Shown one piece after another: positions 4,624 through 53,995 of a DNA stretch of 64,000 nucleotides (positions within the stretch are counted from its first letter, which is position 1; the number at the start of each line of letters is the position of its first letter). The notes under the pieces were generated by a model. The model searched no databases, was not told the DNA's origin, and saw only the letters and a list, made by a program, of their open reading frames with translations. Source of the stretch: Haloarcula marismortui ATCC 43049 (GTDB taxonomy: Archaea > Halobacteriota > Halobacteria > Halobacteriales > Haloarculaceae); contig NC_006396.1 in the NCBI RefSeq assembly GCF_000011085.1, forward strand, positions 682,001 to 746,000. The letters run 5' to 3'. The position numbers were made by a program, and so were the translations under genes.

Positions 4624-4697
4624 TCGTCCCCTGAAATGGGCAATAGTGTCGCTGAGATGGTGGAGGTGTCAATAATGGAGTGTTTCGTGGTGTAACT

Positions 4698-4704
4698 TCT
4701 TTAT
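4698..4704 (+). promoter_or_regulatory. TATA-like box of the pseudo-receiver kinase
   Basis: A TTCTTTATGC stretch lies about 27 bp before the ATG at 4728, giving leaderless spacing. Confidence 0.35.
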
Positions 4705-4727
4705 GCGTGTGTCTCCTCGGAAGGGTG

Positions 4728-6263
4728 ATGAAGTCACAGCCCACCGTCCTGTTTGTCCGTAGTCCGAGCCAGGACAGGGCCGCGATTTCGATGCTCCGGG
4801 ACAGTGATCTCACCGTCCACGAGTTCGACGGTGTTCGCGATCTGGAGTGTGCGCTCGGCGACTACGACACGGACTGTGTCGTCACGAACTGCGAAGTGGA
4901 GAACCCGGACGGGACACAGTATCTCGGTGGGTTGACCCTTATTGATCGACTGCAACGAAATCACCCCGAACTCCCGGTCGTCCTCTTTGCCGAGGTGACA
5001 AACGGCGACATCGCCCGCGAGGCCTACAGCCGCGACGTGTTCAGCTACGTTCCGAGCACAGTGAGCGACGCTCACCAGCGGCTTCTGGCGCGGGTCGACG
5101 CCGCCGTCGCTTCCAGCCCGGCCCGTCAACGGGCGAACAAGCGAAAACAGCTCAACGAGGCCGTCCGGCTGGTCAATCAAGCGCTCGTCCGCTCACAGTC
5201 GCGGGTGGATATCGAACGCGACGTCTCGGCGGTTCTGGCGGGCACAGCCAGATACAGCGAAGCCTGTACGGTGACCTGTCAGCACGACAGGCCGGTCGTT
5301 CGAGCGCTGGGTTCACAGCGGGACCGCGTCTCCATCACCGTGCCGGAGCCGTTGTGCCGCGCCGAGTCGGAGGACCGACTGGTCGTTGCGGATATCGACC
5401 CAGCAACGTTCGCAAATGACACAGACGCACTGGAAACGGACTGCGCCCGAGTTCTCGCTGTCCCACTGGTGTACGATGGGACATCGTACGGCGTCCTCGG
5501 AGTGTACGCCGACCGCGTCGATATCTTCGACACGGAAGAACAGGACACGTTCCGGGAAGTCGGCCACAACATCGCGCTGGCTATCGACGCGAGCCAGACG
5601 AAAGACGCGCTCCAGCAGCGGTCGACGGAACTGGAACGACAAAAAGAGCGACTCCGAGAGCTCGCACAGATCATCTCACACGAACTCCGGAACCCGCTTC
5701 AGGCAGCGATGGGACGGGTCGAACTCCTCGCCGCTGAACACGCCGCCGAAGAGTTTGACGCCATCCAGCGCAGCCACACCCGTATTTCGTTCCTCATCGA
5801 CGATCTCATGGAAATCGCGCGACAGGGCGGCAGACAGTACACTGTCGAGCCGGTCGCGCTCTCCGACGTGATGGGGGACGCCTGGACGACGGTCGACACC
5901 GATGGGTTGACCATCGAAATCGACTGTACCGAGACGATATTGGCCGATAGCACCCGGCTGTGTCAGCTCGCAGAGAACTTCTTTCGGCTCGCCACGGACC
6001 AGGCCGACACCGGGAAGGTAACGATCACGGACACGGCCGATGGGTTCGCCCTCGAACACGACGGCCCTCCGTTGGAGGCGGGAAACGAGGGGCCGTTTGA
6101 ACTCTACTACGCCTCCACTGATGAAGGAGTCGGGCTCCACCTCGCCGTAATTCGGGAAATCGCACACGGTCACGGATGGGAAATCACCCTTGCCAACGAA
6201 TCGACGGGACGGGTCCGGCTGAATGTAACCGACGTTGAGCGGCCGTCAGCGAAAACCACGTAG
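4728..6263 (+). CDS. Histidine kinase with degenerate receiver and GAF domain
   Basis: A 511-residue soluble kinase. Order: receiver-like domain (1 to ~125), linker, GAF-like domain (~150-295), coiled coil, HisKA (~308-375) and HATPase (~400-505). The H-box S-H-E-L-R-N-P is intact with His318. The receiver is degenerate: the N-terminal acidic pair is replaced by R-S-P-S, and the phosphoacceptor position reads V-V-T-N54-C where active receivers have Asp. The ATPase region is weakened too: the N-box Asn is kept, but the G1 motif reads H-D-G-P-P and G2 reads G-V-G-L-H-L. I chose ATG 4728 for the TATA spacing; an upstream in-frame start at 4680 is less likely. I infer that it senses through GAF and that the receiver is structural or binds something other than phosphate. 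Confidence 0.85.
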   Translation: MKSQPTVLFVRSPSQDRAAISMLRDSDLTVHEFDGVRDLECALGDYDTDCVVTNCEVENPDGTQYLGGLTLIDRLQRNHPELPVVLFAEVTNGDIAREAYSRDVFSYVPSTVSDAHQRLLARVDAAVASSPARQRANKRKQLNEAVRLVNQALVRSQSRVDIERDVSAVLAGTARYSEACTVTCQHDRPVVRALGSQRDRVSITVPEPLCRAESEDRLVVADIDPATFANDTDALETDCARVLAVPLVYDGTSYGVLGVYADRVDIFDTEEQDTFREVGHNIALAIDASQTKDALQQRSTELERQKERLRELAQIISHELRNPLQAAMGRVELLAAEHAAEEFDAIQRSHTRISFLIDDLMEIARQGGRQYTVEPVALSDVMGDAWTTVDTDGLTIEIDCTETILADSTRLCQLAENFFRLATDQADTGKVTITDTADGFALEHDGPPLEAGNEGPFELYYASTDEGVGLHLAVIREIAHGHGWEITLANESTGRVRLNVTDVERPSAKTT

Positions 6264-35157: not shown

Positions 35158-36555
35158 CTAGTCGTCTCCTCTGGCCCGCTCGAACATCGCCAGCGCCTCC
35201 TCCCGGCGCTCGCTGTGGTCGACGACGGGGTCCGGGTACTCCGGTGCGGCGCTGCGCCGTTGTGTGAGGGAACAGTCGTTCCAGTCGTGGATGATCTCGG
35301 GTGCAGCGTCCCGTAGCTCCGGGACGTATTCCTTGATATACTCGGCGTTCGGGTCGTAGTCTTCGCCCTGTGTCATCGGATTGAAGATGCGGAAATAGGG
35401 CTGCGCGTCGGTCCCCGTGGAGGCCGCCCACTGCCAGCCACCGTTGTCGTTTGCCGTGTCGTGATCGACCAGTTTCTCCCGGAACCACTCGTAGCCGTGT
35501 CGCCAGTCGATGAGCAGGTCCTTCGTGAGGAAGGAGGCGACGATCATCCGGACGCGGTTGTGCATGTACGCCTCGTCACGGAGCTGTCGCATCCCAGCGT
35601 CGACGATGGGGTAGCCCGTATCGCCGTCTTTCCAGGCCTGTAACAGCTCTTCGTCGTTCTCCCACTCGATGGGGTTCTCGTATGATTTGTAGTTCGAGCT
35701 CACGACGTGTGGATGGGCAAACAGTACCTGTGTGTAGAACTCCCGCCAGGCCAGCTGGGACTGGAACTCCCGGACGGAGTCCCGGCGGTCGCCGCCGGTC
35801 CCCTCCTTGGCAGCCTGTGTCCGGTCGTACACCTCCCGAATACCGATAGTTCCGAACTTCAGATGGGCCGAGAGCCGCGAGGTGCATTCGTCGGCCGGGA
35901 AATCCCGTCGCTCCTCGTACTCGTAGACGTTCTCGTCGAGGAAGTCATCAAGCAGGGCGCGCGCTTCTTCGGTTCCTGCTGCGGGCACGTCCGCTTCTGG
36001 CTCCTCGAAGCCGAGGTCAGCCAGTGTCGGGAGCGCGTCGCCGTCGACATCGGCCAGTGTGTCGGCCGACGGGGGGTCGTAGGGGGCCGCCTTCTCGCGG
36101 TCGTGCCACTTCCGGCCGAAGTAGGTGAAGACGCTGTAGGGGTCGCCGTCGTTCGTCGTAATCTCGCCCGGTTCGTGCAATACAGCGTTCTGGACGGCCT
36201 CGCGGGCCACGTCGGCGTCGTCGAGCGCTTGCCGGACAGCTGCGTCGCGTTCCCGTGCGAGCCCGGAGTAGTCCTTGCCCCAAGTGACCTTCTCTGCGCC
36301 GTGCTGGGCTGCCAGTTCTGGCAAGACGGATGTGGGGTCGCCCTCGGCAACGACGAGGTCACTACCCTTGTCGCGGTACCACTCGCGCAAACTGTCGAGC
36401 GCGTCAAGCATGAACGCGACCCGGGGCGGGCCGGCGTGGTCGAGAACGGCCGTGTCGAAAATGAATACCGGGACGACCGGGTCAGATGGGGTCGCCGCGG
36501 CGAGGCCAGCGTTGTCCGTTGCCCGGAGATCACGGCGATGCCAGTGCAGGCGCAT
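35158..36555 (-). CDS. phr: Deoxyribodipyrimidine photolyase (class I)
   Basis: 465 residues; uses FAD and light to split cyclobutane pyrimidine dimers. The N-terminal antenna-binding alpha/beta domain (M-R-L-H-W-H-R-R-D-L-R) and the C-terminal FAD domain are both present, with W-R-E-F-Y-T, A-G-M-R-Q-L and the conserved N-G-G-W-Q-W-A-A-S-T-G-T-D-A region that lines the FAD site. ATG 36555 matches the family start. Suits an organism in sunlit brine; another photosensory protein, a LOV kinase, lies at 51130. Confidence 0.95.
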   Translation of the reverse strand: MRLHWHRRDLRATDNAGLAAATPSDPVVPVFIFDTAVLDHAGPPRVAFMLDALDSLREWYRDKGSDLVVAEGDPTSVLPELAAQHGAEKVTWGKDYSGLARERDAAVRQALDDADVAREAVQNAVLHEPGEITTNDGDPYSVFTYFGRKWHDREKAAPYDPPSADTLADVDGDALPTLADLGFEEPEADVPAAGTEEARALLDDFLDENVYEYEERRDFPADECTSRLSAHLKFGTIGIREVYDRTQAAKEGTGGDRRDSVREFQSQLAWREFYTQVLFAHPHVVSSNYKSYENPIEWENDEELLQAWKDGDTGYPIVDAGMRQLRDEAYMHNRVRMIVASFLTKDLLIDWRHGYEWFREKLVDHDTANDNGGWQWAASTGTDAQPYFRIFNPMTQGEDYDPNAEYIKEYVPELRDAAPEIIHDWNDCSLTQRRSAAPEYPDPVVDHSERREEALAMFERARGDD

Positions 36556-36661
36556 ACCTAGTACACGGACTAGCCCGGGCAAAAGGTACTGCCCAACGAT
36601 GTTGGTCTGTCAGGCGCTGACGGACACCACTGTTATCTTTCCGCCGGTCAAGTGCCCACAC

Positions 36662-49350: not shown

Positions 49351-50970
49351 ATGCATAAGCCACTGCTTACCACGGATTTTCTCGACCGTGCGCGGGAATA
49401 CTACGGGGACAAAGAGGCTATCGTCGCCACGACCGGTGAGCGCTTCACGTACGACGAGTTCGGGGAACGAGCCGACGGGTTCTCGGCGGCGATGGCTGCC
49501 CGTGGCATCGAGAAGGGGGACCGGGTGGCCGTCTTGGACCCGAACACGCACTACCAGCTCGAAGCGGCCTACGGAACCATGCAGCTGGGCGCGGTCCACA
49601 CGCCGCTGAACTACCGGCTCGTGCCGGACGATTTCGAATATATCCTCTCGGACGCCGAAGTCGACGCCGTTTACGCGGACTACGAGTACGCGGACAAGAT
49701 CGAGCCGATCCGTGACGAGGTGCCCACCGACATCTTCGTGACTAACGACACGGATGCCGTCGACGGCGACTGGGAGTCCTTCGACGAAATCATCGAGGAG
49801 GCGGGAACCGACTACGAGCGGCCAGAGATGGACGAGGACGACCTTATCACCATCAACTACACCTCGGGAACCACCGGCGACCCGAAGGGTGTCTGTCGGA
49901 CCCACCGGACCGAGACACTCCACGCCTACATCGTTGCGCTCCATCAGGAAATCTCGGACGACGATGTCTACCTCTGGACGCTCCCGATGTTCCACGTCAA
50001 CGGCTGGGGCCACATCTTCTCGGTCACCGGGATGGGCGCGAAACACGTCTGCACCCGCGGTGTTGATGCCGAAGGCATCTTCGACGCCGTCAGGACTGAG
50101 GACGTGTCCTATCTCTGTGGCGCGCCGACGGTGTTGAACATCCTTGCGGATCGCTATGCGGCCCACGACGGGGAAATCGAGACGACCGGTGCGAACGACG
50201 TGCGCATCGCGACGGCCGGCAGCGCACCGCCGGAGGCCGTCATCCGAACCGTCGAGGACGACTTCGGCTGGTACCTGAAACACGTTTACGGCGCGACCGA
50301 AACCGGCCCGCTCGTCACGACCTCGGACGCCCGGCGCTTCTTCGAGGACGGGAGCAACGCCCGCTTCAGCGTCAAGAAGCGCCAAGGTATCGGCTACCTC
50401 GGGACCGATGTCCGGGTCGTCGACGAGGACGGCAACGACGTGCCACACGACGACGAGACGCTTGGGGAGGTCGTCGTCCGCGGCAATCAGGTGATGGACC
50501 GCTACTGGAACAAACCCGAACAGACGGAAGAGGCCTTCTCCGACCGCGTCGAGGGCTACTACCACATGGGCGACTTGGCGACGGTCGACGAGGACGGCAT
50601 GGTTGCCATCCGCGACCGCAAGAAGGACATCATCATCTCCGGCGGCGAGAACATCTCCAGCATCGAACTAGAGGACACGCTCTACGAACACGACGCCGTC
50701 AGCGATGTCGCAGTTATCCCCGCCCCGAGCGACGAGTGGGGCGAGACGCCGAAGGCCTTCGTCGTCCCGAATTCGGGCGATCCCGACAACCCGGGCGTGA
50801 CAGCCGAGGACCTCCGGACGTTCACCCGCGAACAGCTGGCGACCTACAAAGTCGTTCGCCGCGTGGAGTTCGTCGAGGAACTGCCCACGACAGCAACTGG
50901 GAAGGTCCAGAAGTACGAGCTCCGCGAACAGGAGTGGGAAGACGAAGACGAGATGGTCGGCCAGGGATAG
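49351..50970 (+). CDS. Acyl-CoA ligase (AMP-forming, fatty-acid type)
   Basis: 539 residues. Motifs: Y-T-S-G-T-T-G-D-P-K-G-V, Y-G-A-T-E-T-G-P-L-V-T, and the C-terminal D-R-K-K-D-I-I-I-S-G-G-E-N-I-S-S with a catalytic lysine in A-T-G-K-V-Q-K. Closer in look to medium/long-chain acyl-CoA ligases than to MenE. Starts divergently from menA across 134 bp with TATA-like TTTATCAT (49320-49327) about 27 bp upstream. Substrate inferred as fatty acid. Confidence 0.9.
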   Translation: MHKPLLTTDFLDRAREYYGDKEAIVATTGERFTYDEFGERADGFSAAMAARGIEKGDRVAVLDPNTHYQLEAAYGTMQLGAVHTPLNYRLVPDDFEYILSDAEVDAVYADYEYADKIEPIRDEVPTDIFVTNDTDAVDGDWESFDEIIEEAGTDYERPEMDEDDLITINYTSGTTGDPKGVCRTHRTETLHAYIVALHQEISDDDVYLWTLPMFHVNGWGHIFSVTGMGAKHVCTRGVDAEGIFDAVRTEDVSYLCGAPTVLNILADRYAAHDGEIETTGANDVRIATAGSAPPEAVIRTVEDDFGWYLKHVYGATETGPLVTTSDARRFFEDGSNARFSVKKRQGIGYLGTDVRVVDEDGNDVPHDDETLGEVVVRGNQVMDRYWNKPEQTEEAFSDRVEGYYHMGDLATVDEDGMVAIRDRKKDIIISGGENISSIELEDTLYEHDAVSDVAVIPAPSDEWGETPKAFVVPNSGDPDNPGVTAEDLRTFTREQLATYKVVRRVEFVEELPTTATGKVQKYELREQEWEDEDEMVGQG

Positions 50971-51129: not shown

Positions 51130-53376
51130 ATGACTGCTATCGCTGAGACAATTTGCATTCTCCACGTCGATGATGAACCGGGATTTGCCGACATGGCAGC
51201 GACGTTTCTGGAACGCGAGGACGACCGGGTAGACGTGCAGACTGCGACGTCCGCCACAGCGGGGCTAGAAATCCTAGCTGACAACGACATCGACTGTGTC
51301 GTCTCCGACTACGATATGCCCGAGCGGAACGGCATCCAGTTCCTCGAAGCCGTCCGCGAGGAATACGGGTCGCTTCCATTTATTCTGTACACTGGCAAAG
51401 GCTCCGAGGAGATCGCAAGCGACGCTATCTCGGCCGGAGTCACCGATTATCTGCAGAAAGAGAGCGGCACCGACCAGTACGCGGTGCTCGCGAACCGAAT
51501 CACCAACGCAGTGGAGTCTCAGCGTGTCAAGCGAGAGCGGAACCGCCAACTCGATGCCATCGAGACCGCACAGGAGGGCATCAGTATCCTTGACGAAGAT
51601 GGGGAGTTCATCTTCGTCAACGAAGCCTACGCGGACCTCTACGGCTACGAACCGGAGGAGATGCGGGGGCGACACTGGGAGCTGCTGTACCGGGACGAGG
51701 ACATCCCGCGTATCTACGACGACATCCTCCCGACTGTCGAGGCAAGCGGCTACTGGACCGGGACGACGACGGGGCTCCGTGCCGACGGGAGTACGTTCAC
51801 CGAAGACCACGTACTCGCGCGGACCGACCGCGGTGAGTTGGTCTGCACTGTCCGGGATATCTCCGACCAGCGAGACGGCGAACAGGAGCTCTCCCGGATC
51901 AAACGTGCCATGGACGAGGCCCCGGTCGGAATCACGATCACCGGCCCCAAACAGGAGGACACTCCGATCAGCTACGCGAACAGGCAGTTTCTGGAACTGA
52001 CCGGCTACACGGAGTCTGAGGTCCGCGGCCGGAACTGCCGGTTCCTCCAGGGCGAGGAGACCGAGGCAGAGCCGGTCGACGCGATGCGGGCGGCCATCGA
52101 CGCGGACGAACCCGTATCGGTCGAACTCCGGAACTACCGGAAAGACGGAACCATGTTCTGGAATCAGGTGTCTATCGCCCCAGTCCGCGACAACGACGGA
52201 ACGGTCGTCAACTACGTTGGGTTCCAACGGGACATTACCGAACGGAAAGAACACGAACGCCGCCTCAAAGCTCTCAGCGAGTCGGTGCAGGACCTGCTCC
52301 AGGCAGACACGCGCGAGGAAGTGGCCGAAATCGGTGTCGAGACGGCCCGCACGGTACTGGGACTCGAAGCCAACACGATCCACCTCTACAACGAGGCCGA
52401 ACGGACGCTCGAACCGGTCGCCGCCTCTGACGGGATATATGACCTGCTAGAGGATTTGCCGACCTTCACGCCCGGAGATAGCATCGCGTGGCGCGTCTAC
52501 GAGTCCGGCGACGCACTCGCAGTCGATGATGTCCACGCTGACCCGGACATCTACAACCCGGACACGCCAATCAAAAGCGAACTATATCTCCCGCTCGGCA
52601 GGCATGGAATCCTGCTGGCCGGTTCGGGGACAAACGCGGCGTTCGACCAGCGAGACGTCATTCTCGGAGAGATTCTGGCCGGACACATCATCAGCGCGCT
52701 CAAGCAGGTCGAAGGGACCGAACAGTTACGCGACCGCGAACGGGACCTCGAACAGCACAACGACCGGCTCGAAGCGTTCACGAGCGTCGTCTCACACGAT
52801 CTACGGAATCCGCTGAACGTTGCACAGGGACGACTGCAACTGGCACGCGAACAGTACGAGAGTGAGCATCTGGCCGCTGTCGAACAGGCACATGAGCGAA
52901 TGGACACGCTGATAACCGACCTGCTCACGCTGGCACAGGACGGTGAGACCGTCACCGACCGCGAATCGGTCGCGCTCGCGTCGCTCGCAGAAAATTGCTG
53001 GACGACCGTCGAGACGGCCGATGCGACACTCGTCACCGATATCGACCGGACTGTCCTGGCAAACGAGAGCCGCCTGAAGCAGTTATTCGAAAACCTCGTC
53101 CGGAACGCGGTCGAGCATGCCGGGGCAGACGTGACCGTAACGGTCGGAGCGTTAGACGACGGGTTCTACGTCGCGGACGACGGCCCCGGCATCCCCGAAG
53201 ACGAGCGAGAGACAGTGTTCGAAGCCGGCTACTCAACGAGTACGGAGGGGACCGGGTTCGGGCTCAGTATCGCCCGGAAAGTTGCAGCGGCACACGATTG
53301 GGAGATCAGCGTTCGGGATAGTGCTGATGGTGGCACACGCTTCGAGATTACCGGCGTCTCGTTTTGTGATTCGTAG
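51130..53376 (+). CDS. Receiver-PAS-LOV-GAF histidine kinase
   Basis: 748 residues, no membrane helices. Order: receiver (1 to ~125; acidic pair D14-D15, phosphoacceptor D60 in V-V-S-D-Y-D-M-P), PAS (~140-250), LOV-type PAS (~260-375), GAF (~385-530), coiled helix, HisKA (His556 in V-S-H-D-L-R-N-P) and HATPase (~640-745, D-D-G-P-G-I and G-T-G-F-G-L intact). The LOV domain has the photoactive motif G-R-N-C303-R-F-L-Q-G and the later N-Y-R-K-D-G-T-M-F-W-N and V-G-F-Q-R-D-I-T elements that bind flavin. I infer blue-light sensing through a Cys-FMN adduct with a receiver at the front of the kinase. AT-rich TATA-like stretches lie at 51001-51015 and near 51088. Confidence 0.93.
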   Translation: MTAIAETICILHVDDEPGFADMAATFLEREDDRVDVQTATSATAGLEILADNDIDCVVSDYDMPERNGIQFLEAVREEYGSLPFILYTGKGSEEIASDAISAGVTDYLQKESGTDQYAVLANRITNAVESQRVKRERNRQLDAIETAQEGISILDEDGEFIFVNEAYADLYGYEPEEMRGRHWELLYRDEDIPRIYDDILPTVEASGYWTGTTTGLRADGSTFTEDHVLARTDRGELVCTVRDISDQRDGEQELSRIKRAMDEAPVGITITGPKQEDTPISYANRQFLELTGYTESEVRGRNCRFLQGEETEAEPVDAMRAAIDADEPVSVELRNYRKDGTMFWNQVSIAPVRDNDGTVVNYVGFQRDITERKEHERRLKALSESVQDLLQADTREEVAEIGVETARTVLGLEANTIHLYNEAERTLEPVAASDGIYDLLEDLPTFTPGDSIAWRVYESGDALAVDDVHADPDIYNPDTPIKSELYLPLGRHGILLAGSGTNAAFDQRDVILGEILAGHIISALKQVEGTEQLRDRERDLEQHNDRLEAFTSVVSHDLRNPLNVAQGRLQLAREQYESEHLAAVEQAHERMDTLITDLLTLAQDGETVTDRESVALASLAENCWTTVETADATLVTDIDRTVLANESRLKQLFENLVRNAVEHAGADVTVTVGALDDGFYVADDGPGIPEDERETVFEAGYSTSTEGTGFGLSIARKVAAAHDWEISVRDSADGGTRFEITGVSFCDS

Positions 53377-53560: not shown

Positions 53561-53995
53561 TTAGTCTTCGAGCGCGTCAGCGATGCGGTCGAGCGAGCGT
53601 CGCATATCGTGGACTTCGTCCCGGAGCTTTCGCATCTCTCGCGTAAGTTCCTCGTTGTCGCTCCCGCCCGATTCCTCGCGCTGCCCTGGCGGGCCGCCGC
53701 CCATGCCGCCGGGGCCGCCCGGACCGGGACCGCCGGGACCGCCGCCCATCATGCCGCCCATCATCTGTGCGAAGGGGTTGCCGCCGCCCATGCCGCCGGG
53801 GCCGCCGCCACCGCCCATCATCTCTTCCATGCGCTCTTCGCGGCTCATCTCTTCGCCGTCGCCCTCGCCTTCTTCGCGCTCCTCGGCGCGCTGCTGTCGG
53901 ATCTCCTCGACTCGCTCGCGGAAGGACTTCTCCTCGCCGCCTTCCTCGGTCGCATCCGCCGATTCGCCAGCGTCTTCAGGTTCATCGTCTGCCAT
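53561..53995 (-). CDS. Gly/Met/Pro-rich acidic protein
   Basis: 144 residues in three parts: an acidic helix (~1-55, E/R rich), a low-complexity central stretch (~58-105) with G-G-M-G-G-G and M-M-G-G repeats, and a charged C-terminal coiled-coil helix (L-T-R-E-M-R-K-L-R-D-E-V-H-D-M-R-R-S-L). I do not recognise a named family. The central Met-rich part could bind metal or act as a flexible linker. The acidic and coiled parts are typical of real haloarchaeal proteins. Confidence 0.7.
   Translation of the reverse strand: MADDEPEDAGESADATEEGGEEKSFRERVEEIRQQRAEEREEGEGDGEEMSREERMEEMMGGGGGPGGMGGGNPFAQMMGGMMGGGPGGPGPGGPGGMGGGPPGQREESGGSDNEELTREMRKLRDEVHDMRRSLDRIADALED

Follow-up and report, generated by a model that had tools for sequence, protein, structure and literature searches.

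A predicted LOV histidine kinase with an N-terminal receiver in Haloarcula, and a proposed route for its regulation by blue light

A 2014 survey counted 167 archaeal LOV proteins and described those without an HTH as LOV kinases carrying RR, GAF and PAS units (PMC4844311). Natural LOV domains that lack the adduct cysteine, including a halobacterial version with proline, were reported in 2015 (PMC4682037), and in 2018 archaeal kinases that begin with a receiver (REC) were described as a class, none of them characterised at that time (PMC5847659). In 2025 one haloarchaeal LOV domain, ALovD-1, was found to photocycle, slowly and, as an isolated domain, at up to 3 M salt; the same work repeats the REC/PAS/GAF-LOV-kinase description (PMC12202551). 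Our literature search found no full-length archaeal LOV kinase that had been characterised, the laboratory data there being for isolated domains, and found no biochemistry, phenotype or expression data for the protein considered here. Because these studies describe such LOV and REC-first kinases, the class is known; the protein is a member of this already published class, which is found in most relatives.

The gene lies in a 64-kb stretch of DNA, here called the window (G000:C8:682001-746000), of a 4.27-Mb genome in nine contigs whose closest named relatives are Haloarcula species (82-89% protein identity). Its reading frame starts with ATG and runs for 748 amino acids uninterrupted by a stop. 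Pfam finds Response_reg at residues 10-115 (E = 1.3e-21), GAF_2 at 393-524 (8.8e-15), HisKA at 547-603 (1.3e-11) and HATPase_c at 645-741 (2.9e-22), with two PAS stretches between the receiver and the GAF domain; every domain clears its Pfam cut-off by a wide margin. The first PAS stretch begins at about residue 142; the second, at 266-371, is the stronger (PAS_9, 9.1e-37) and has the top score among the 93 PAS_9 matches genome-wide. Where a LOV domain would have its Cys helix, the first PAS domain reads GRHWELLY, and it is not a LOV domain. A 369-aa frame overlaps the gene on the opposite strand (51274-52383, -) and is taken as a by-product of the high G+C coding sequence. The first-pass annotation had read this protein as a LOV histidine kinase of archaeal type that begins with a receiver. 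The coordinates, motif positions and domain order that it gave are correct, and sequence, conservation and structural prediction all give the description good support. The features are collected in Table 1.

Table 1. Features of the kinase gene, with positions in the 64-kb window.
Feature	Position	Strand	Basis
LOV histidine kinase, 748 aa, REC-PAS-LOV-GAF-HisKA-HATPase	51130..53376	+	ORF call, Pfam
Receiver domain, aa 10-115, D14/D15/D60/T88/K110 present	51157..51474	+	Pfam, alignment
Codon of D60, receiver phospho-acceptor	51307-51309	+	Alignment
First PAS domain, aa ~149-246, non-LOV	51574..51867	+	Pfam, alignment
LOV domain, aa 255-380	51892..52269	+	Sequence match, alignment, model, Foldseek
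Codon of Thr269	51934..51936	+	Alignment of LOV domains
Codon of Cys303, predicted flavin-adduct cysteine	52036..52038	+	Motif; 30/30 conserved
GAF domain, aa 393-524, between LOV and kinase	52306..52701	+	Pfam
HisKA dimerisation/phospho-acceptor domain, aa 547-603	52768..52938	+	Pfam, alignment
Codon of His556, phospho-acceptor	52795-52797	+	Alignment
HATPase_c catalytic domain, aa 645-741; N, G1, G2 boxes present	53062..53352	+	Pfam, alignment

The second PAS stretch is confidently assigned, from its predicted structure, to the LOV-type PAS fold. Against the PDB, a 128-aa LOV stretch has B. subtilis YtvA as its closest solved sequence match (E = 5e-37), followed by aureochromes, CagFbFP, Brucella LOV-HK and phototropins. 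An AlphaFold model of the domain, built from 72 haloarchaeal LOV rows, has a pLDDT of 93.6, and in Foldseek its best solved neighbours are all LOV domains: MrLOVe, YF1 and Brucella LOV-HK at TM ~0.88-0.95 (MrLOVe itself at 0.94-0.95) and YtvA at 0.84. Identity as YtvA was rejected, the NCBIfam equivalog YtvA_fam scoring 178 bits against a curated cut-off of 250, with a best stretch that covers the LOV part only. The equivalog BluLightHisKinLov likewise matches the LOV part only (157 bits against a cut-off of 450), and the kinase part is a plain HisKA in Pfam.

The translation contains the three motifs noted in the first pass: GRNCRFLQG with Cys303, NYRKDG at 335-340 and VGFQRD at 363-368. All predicted flavin contacts are present (N302, C303, R304, Q307, R320, N335, N345 and Q366), and across 30 aligned REC-first LOV-kinase relatives each is invariant except N345, which is found in 29. 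In a wider alignment of 102 haloarchaeal LOV-like domains, 88 have Cys at the adduct position. The invariance of Cys303 in the REC-LOV-kinase line points to selection for adduct chemistry there, and the domain is very likely photoactive, as judged by analogy with characterised LOV proteins.

An alternative is that light is secondary and that reduction of the flavin makes the LOV domain chiefly a sensor of redox state or oxygen, the role suggested for LOV* of BAT, which is haloarchaeal and Cys-less. Such a role has precedent, in that Cys-less LOV variants still signal by flavin photoreduction and the halobacterial Pro-LOV* binds a flavin that is reduced both by light and chemically (PMC4682037). 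One relative of identical architecture (L217) has Pro at the Cys site, and within the order 36 of 392 genomes encode a Pro-LOV. Cys303 is nevertheless invariant across the 30 aligned relatives and is kept by all Haloarcula orthologues compared, and a mainly redox role for this LOV domain is improbable.

Thr269 occupies what we take to be the position of AsLOV2 Val416, from an alignment made through YtvA. Thr is the commonest residue at this site in haloarchaeal LOV domains (60/102). In AsLOV2, V416T makes dark recovery 21-fold faster (PMC3867380), and our guess, by analogy, is therefore that Thr269 would give the kinase LOV domain a faster dark recovery; ALovD-1 nevertheless recovers slowly (PMC12202551). 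Tyr362 stands at the site of Phe in non-archaeal LOV domains and matches the Tyr-for-Phe exchange reported as a hallmark of the Lake Diamante LOVs (PMC12202551).

The receiver and the kinase had been said to look intact, and every catalytic residue checked is indeed present. In the receiver, D14, D15, D60, T88 and K110 form a complete active site; these are the residues of a phosphorylatable receiver (acid pair, Asp, Thr and Lys), which some members of the class are without. In the kinase, His556, N659, D683, G685 and G709 are present and invariant in the same relatives, and the H, N, G1 and G2 boxes are in order. This complement of residues in receiver, kinase and flavin site is far beyond chance, and the protein matches the archaeal REC-first histidine kinase plan of N-terminal REC, PAS/GAF and HisKA-HATPase. 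That it is an active histidine kinase is highly probable; that the kinase is under light control is likely.

In the full-length monomer model, helical connectors at 245-263, 370-390 and 507-575 follow the usual signalling-helix layout, and a full-length fold search ranks the LOV kinase YF1 first. Because the global confidence of this model is low (pTM 0.43), domain packing is not interpreted and the receiver cannot be placed against His556. The parts conserved among relatives are REC, LOV and kinase. The first PAS domain is poorly conserved outside Haloarcula, falling to 25-30% identity in several relatives, and the slot between LOV and kinase holds a PAS domain, or nothing, in most of them. 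In relatives with PAS or LOV fused directly to the kinase, 27 residues lie between DIT and the His. The corresponding spacing in YF1 is 36, which puts those relatives at register +5. Light-activated variants of YF1 lie at register +1 (PMC11164954). This reading fails for the present kinase because the GAF domain sits between LOV and kinase; the sign of the light response cannot be transferred to it from helix register, which is only a lead.

The contribution of the receiver is best considered beside a close paralogue of the kinase. The same genome encodes a second REC-PAS-LOV-PAS-HK protein of 730 aa (C8:58263-60371, +; locus L101), the LOV domain of which is 70% identical in a domain search and has the motif GKNCRILQG. 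In its receiver the acid pair is replaced by Gly-Thr, as it is in relatives from three other genomes of the genus. As a paralogue similar in overall plan is present, the function of the kinase may be redundant.

One proposal is a receiver-driven relay, in which phosphorylation of D60 by another kinase is the switch and LOV, PAS and GAF modulate only. The complete receiver pocket agrees with it, and activation of such kinases by receiver phosphorylation has been proposed in a study that had no characterised example to draw on in 2018 (PMC5847659). Against this, the receiver acidic pair is lost (GT for DD) in the paralogue and its three relatives, all of which still have the LOV Cys. A phosphorylatable receiver thus seems unneeded in the paralogue line, and with the pocket degenerate there, phosphorylation cannot be assumed essential. 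Overall, a relay driven by the receiver is very unlikely.

Because the receiver of the present kinase is intact, tuning by an upstream phosphate is possible, as suggested in the first pass, and that the blue-light signal is tuned through the receiver by another kinase can be entertained tentatively. A further reading, possible rather than probable, is that the kinase works as a gate with two inputs, its output being set jointly by a phosphorylatable receiver and by a LOV sensor of blue light on the same chain. If this is true, Haloarcula would hold a matched natural pair, one kinase competent in its receiver and a receiver-disabled paralogue that retains the LOV Cys, which would allow light to be compared with phosphate as an input within one cell. 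Within the main model there is also the question of whether the receiver is phosphorylated from His556 of the same protein, either within one chain or between the two chains of the dimer, and so acts as a feedback point or sink and not as an upstream input. Receiver and kinase share one chain with both active sites complete, and such fusions are common, 18 of the 40 receivers in the genome lying on kinases (a count that leaves aside three matches below the cut-off, two to the receiver and one to the ATPase). The monomer model does not position the receiver relative to His556, and this arrangement is rather doubtful.

Other relatives supply further natural contrasts. A plasmid protein of Salinibaculum sp. 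KK48 has the same architecture at 53% identity with Pro for Cys (GQNPRFLQG), and one of Halorubrum sp. PV6 keeps receiver, first PAS, GAF and kinase with a non-LOV PAS in the LOV slot. With the paralogue, these proteins show that the scaffold stays while the sensor slot changes, and all three are ready-made controls. Separately, a 550-aa REC-PAS-LOV-GAF frame (L143:2597-4246, +), close in plan to the kinase, apparently ends after the GAF domain with no kinase detected; it is either frameshifted or a genuine kinase-less form.

Of the 32 genomes of the genus, 13 carry an orthologue; those outside the genome of the kinase itself are 82-92% identical to it, and six named Haloarcula species share the gene neighbourhood. 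On the strength of that common neighbourhood, an unusual taxonomic spread or recent transfer into Haloarcula was rejected. Within the order, 114 of 146 genomes have a strong match to the LOV domain, and 280 of 392 contain the coding pattern for exactly GxNCRFLQG. A tree of LOV domains places Bacillota YtvA among the haloarchaeal LOVs without strong support; the domain is short, and a single origin is not settled by the tree. In a sample of 93 LOV ORFs, biased to close matches and with domains assigned by profiles built from this protein, 50 have a receiver, the commonest plan is REC-PAS-LOV-PAS-HK (15), and the GAF version with Cys is seen in Haloarcula only. Since the receiver-LOV-kinase plan is widespread, the architecture is ordinary, and the exchange of GAF for PAS is a lineage-specific detail.

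Several other LOV-type proteins were seen in the survey. A 2318-aa multi-PAS histidine kinase of the same genome (G000:C9:141028-147033, -; locus L102) has two LOV-type domains, one with Pro at the adduct site (GRNPRFLQG) and one with Cys (GRNCRFLQR), and to judge by these motifs may hold both a Cys-less and a photoactive LOV domain on one chain. The Pro-LOVs of the order (GxNPRFLQG, other flavin residues mostly kept; loci L219-L238) are spread over 11 of 95 genera. At least three kinds of protein carry them: long multi-PAS proteins, short LOVs of ~190 aa and a ~680-aa family in one genus. Several genera have the same or almost the same 26-base motif, and the gene may thus be a conserved or a transferred one. 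A 193-aa short LOV-like protein (G000:C7:166233-166559, -; locus L103:2234-2566) has Leu at the Cys site (GENLRLLQG); the similar short proteins L222 and L223 have Pro.

On either side of the kinase are genes for metabolic or uncharacterised products: upstream an acyl-CoA synthetase-like gene identified by eye (49351-50970, +) and downstream a Met/Gly-rich protein without a Pfam match (53561-53995, -). No cognate response regulator was found near the kinase, its own receiver being the only one over the cut-off within the window. A histidine-kinase-like ORF at 4680-6263 (+) has GAF-HisKA; its receiver and ATPase matches fall below the cut-off, so that it may be divergent or degenerate. The window does contain a photolyase gene, as noted earlier, at 35158-36582 (-). 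This member of the photolyase/cryptochrome family scores 451 bits against an 8-HDF photolyase model, below that model's cut-off. Unrelated genes occupy the ~14.5 kb that separate it from the kinase, and the genome has two further DNA_photolyase-domain genes elsewhere (C8:623899 and C8:1732829); a link between kinase and photolyase was therefore rejected as evidence.

Taken in aggregate, it is quite likely that in Haloarcula the gene product is a soluble dimer, a histidine kinase regulated by blue light. By analogy with characterised LOV proteins, the LOV domain would hold FMN non-covalently in the dark. Blue light would then cause Cys303 to bond the flavin C4a, with protonation of N5 and turning of Gln366, and the resulting strain would pass through the LOV beta-sheet to the flanking helices at residues ~245-263 and 370-390. 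From there the strain would travel via the GAF module and the long helix at 507-575 and shift the kinase/phosphatase balance at His556. The phosphate on His556 would then pass to the Asp of another protein, a response regulator whose gene lies elsewhere, and D60 of the N-terminal receiver, phosphorylated by its own or another kinase, could be a second input or a feedback point. The reading frame, domain order, full set of catalytic and flavin-site residues, fold, Cys conservation and the neighbourhood kept within Haloarcula are computed results; the partner regulator, the role of the receiver and the sign of the light response are guesses.

The protein is thus an intact-looking photoreceptor candidate, predicted from sequence and model. 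As the protein is intact, its host probably culturable and natural contrasts at hand, the way in which the receiver and light inputs are combined is open to experiment.

Compared with the known systems, the protein resembles the archaeal LOV kinases of Losi and colleagues in 2014 in joining a haloarchaeal LOV domain with RR, PAS and GAF units and a histidine kinase; that study differs as a sequence-only survey that reports a class (PMC4844311). The archaeal REC-(PAS/GAF)-HisKA-HATPase proteins share the N-terminal receiver, sensor modules and C-terminal kinase, but LOV is unmentioned there (PMC5847659). YtvA, closest in LOV sequence, has a STAS output. In YF1, the engineered YtvA-FixL kinase, LOV is joined straight to the kinase, in contrast to the intervening GAF and the leading receiver and PAS found here. 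Brucella abortus LOV-HK is a natural LOV-PAS-kinase whose LOV and full-length structures match, although its solved constructs are without an N-terminal receiver and have PAS, not GAF, before the kinase. ALovD-1 of Lake Diamante is likewise a haloarchaeal LOV domain, from a histidine kinase that contains PAS, and its motif is of the GXNCRFLQ type; there the motif Phe is Tyr and the isolated domain alone was studied, whereas the present protein has Phe305, a receiver and a GAF domain (PMC12202551).
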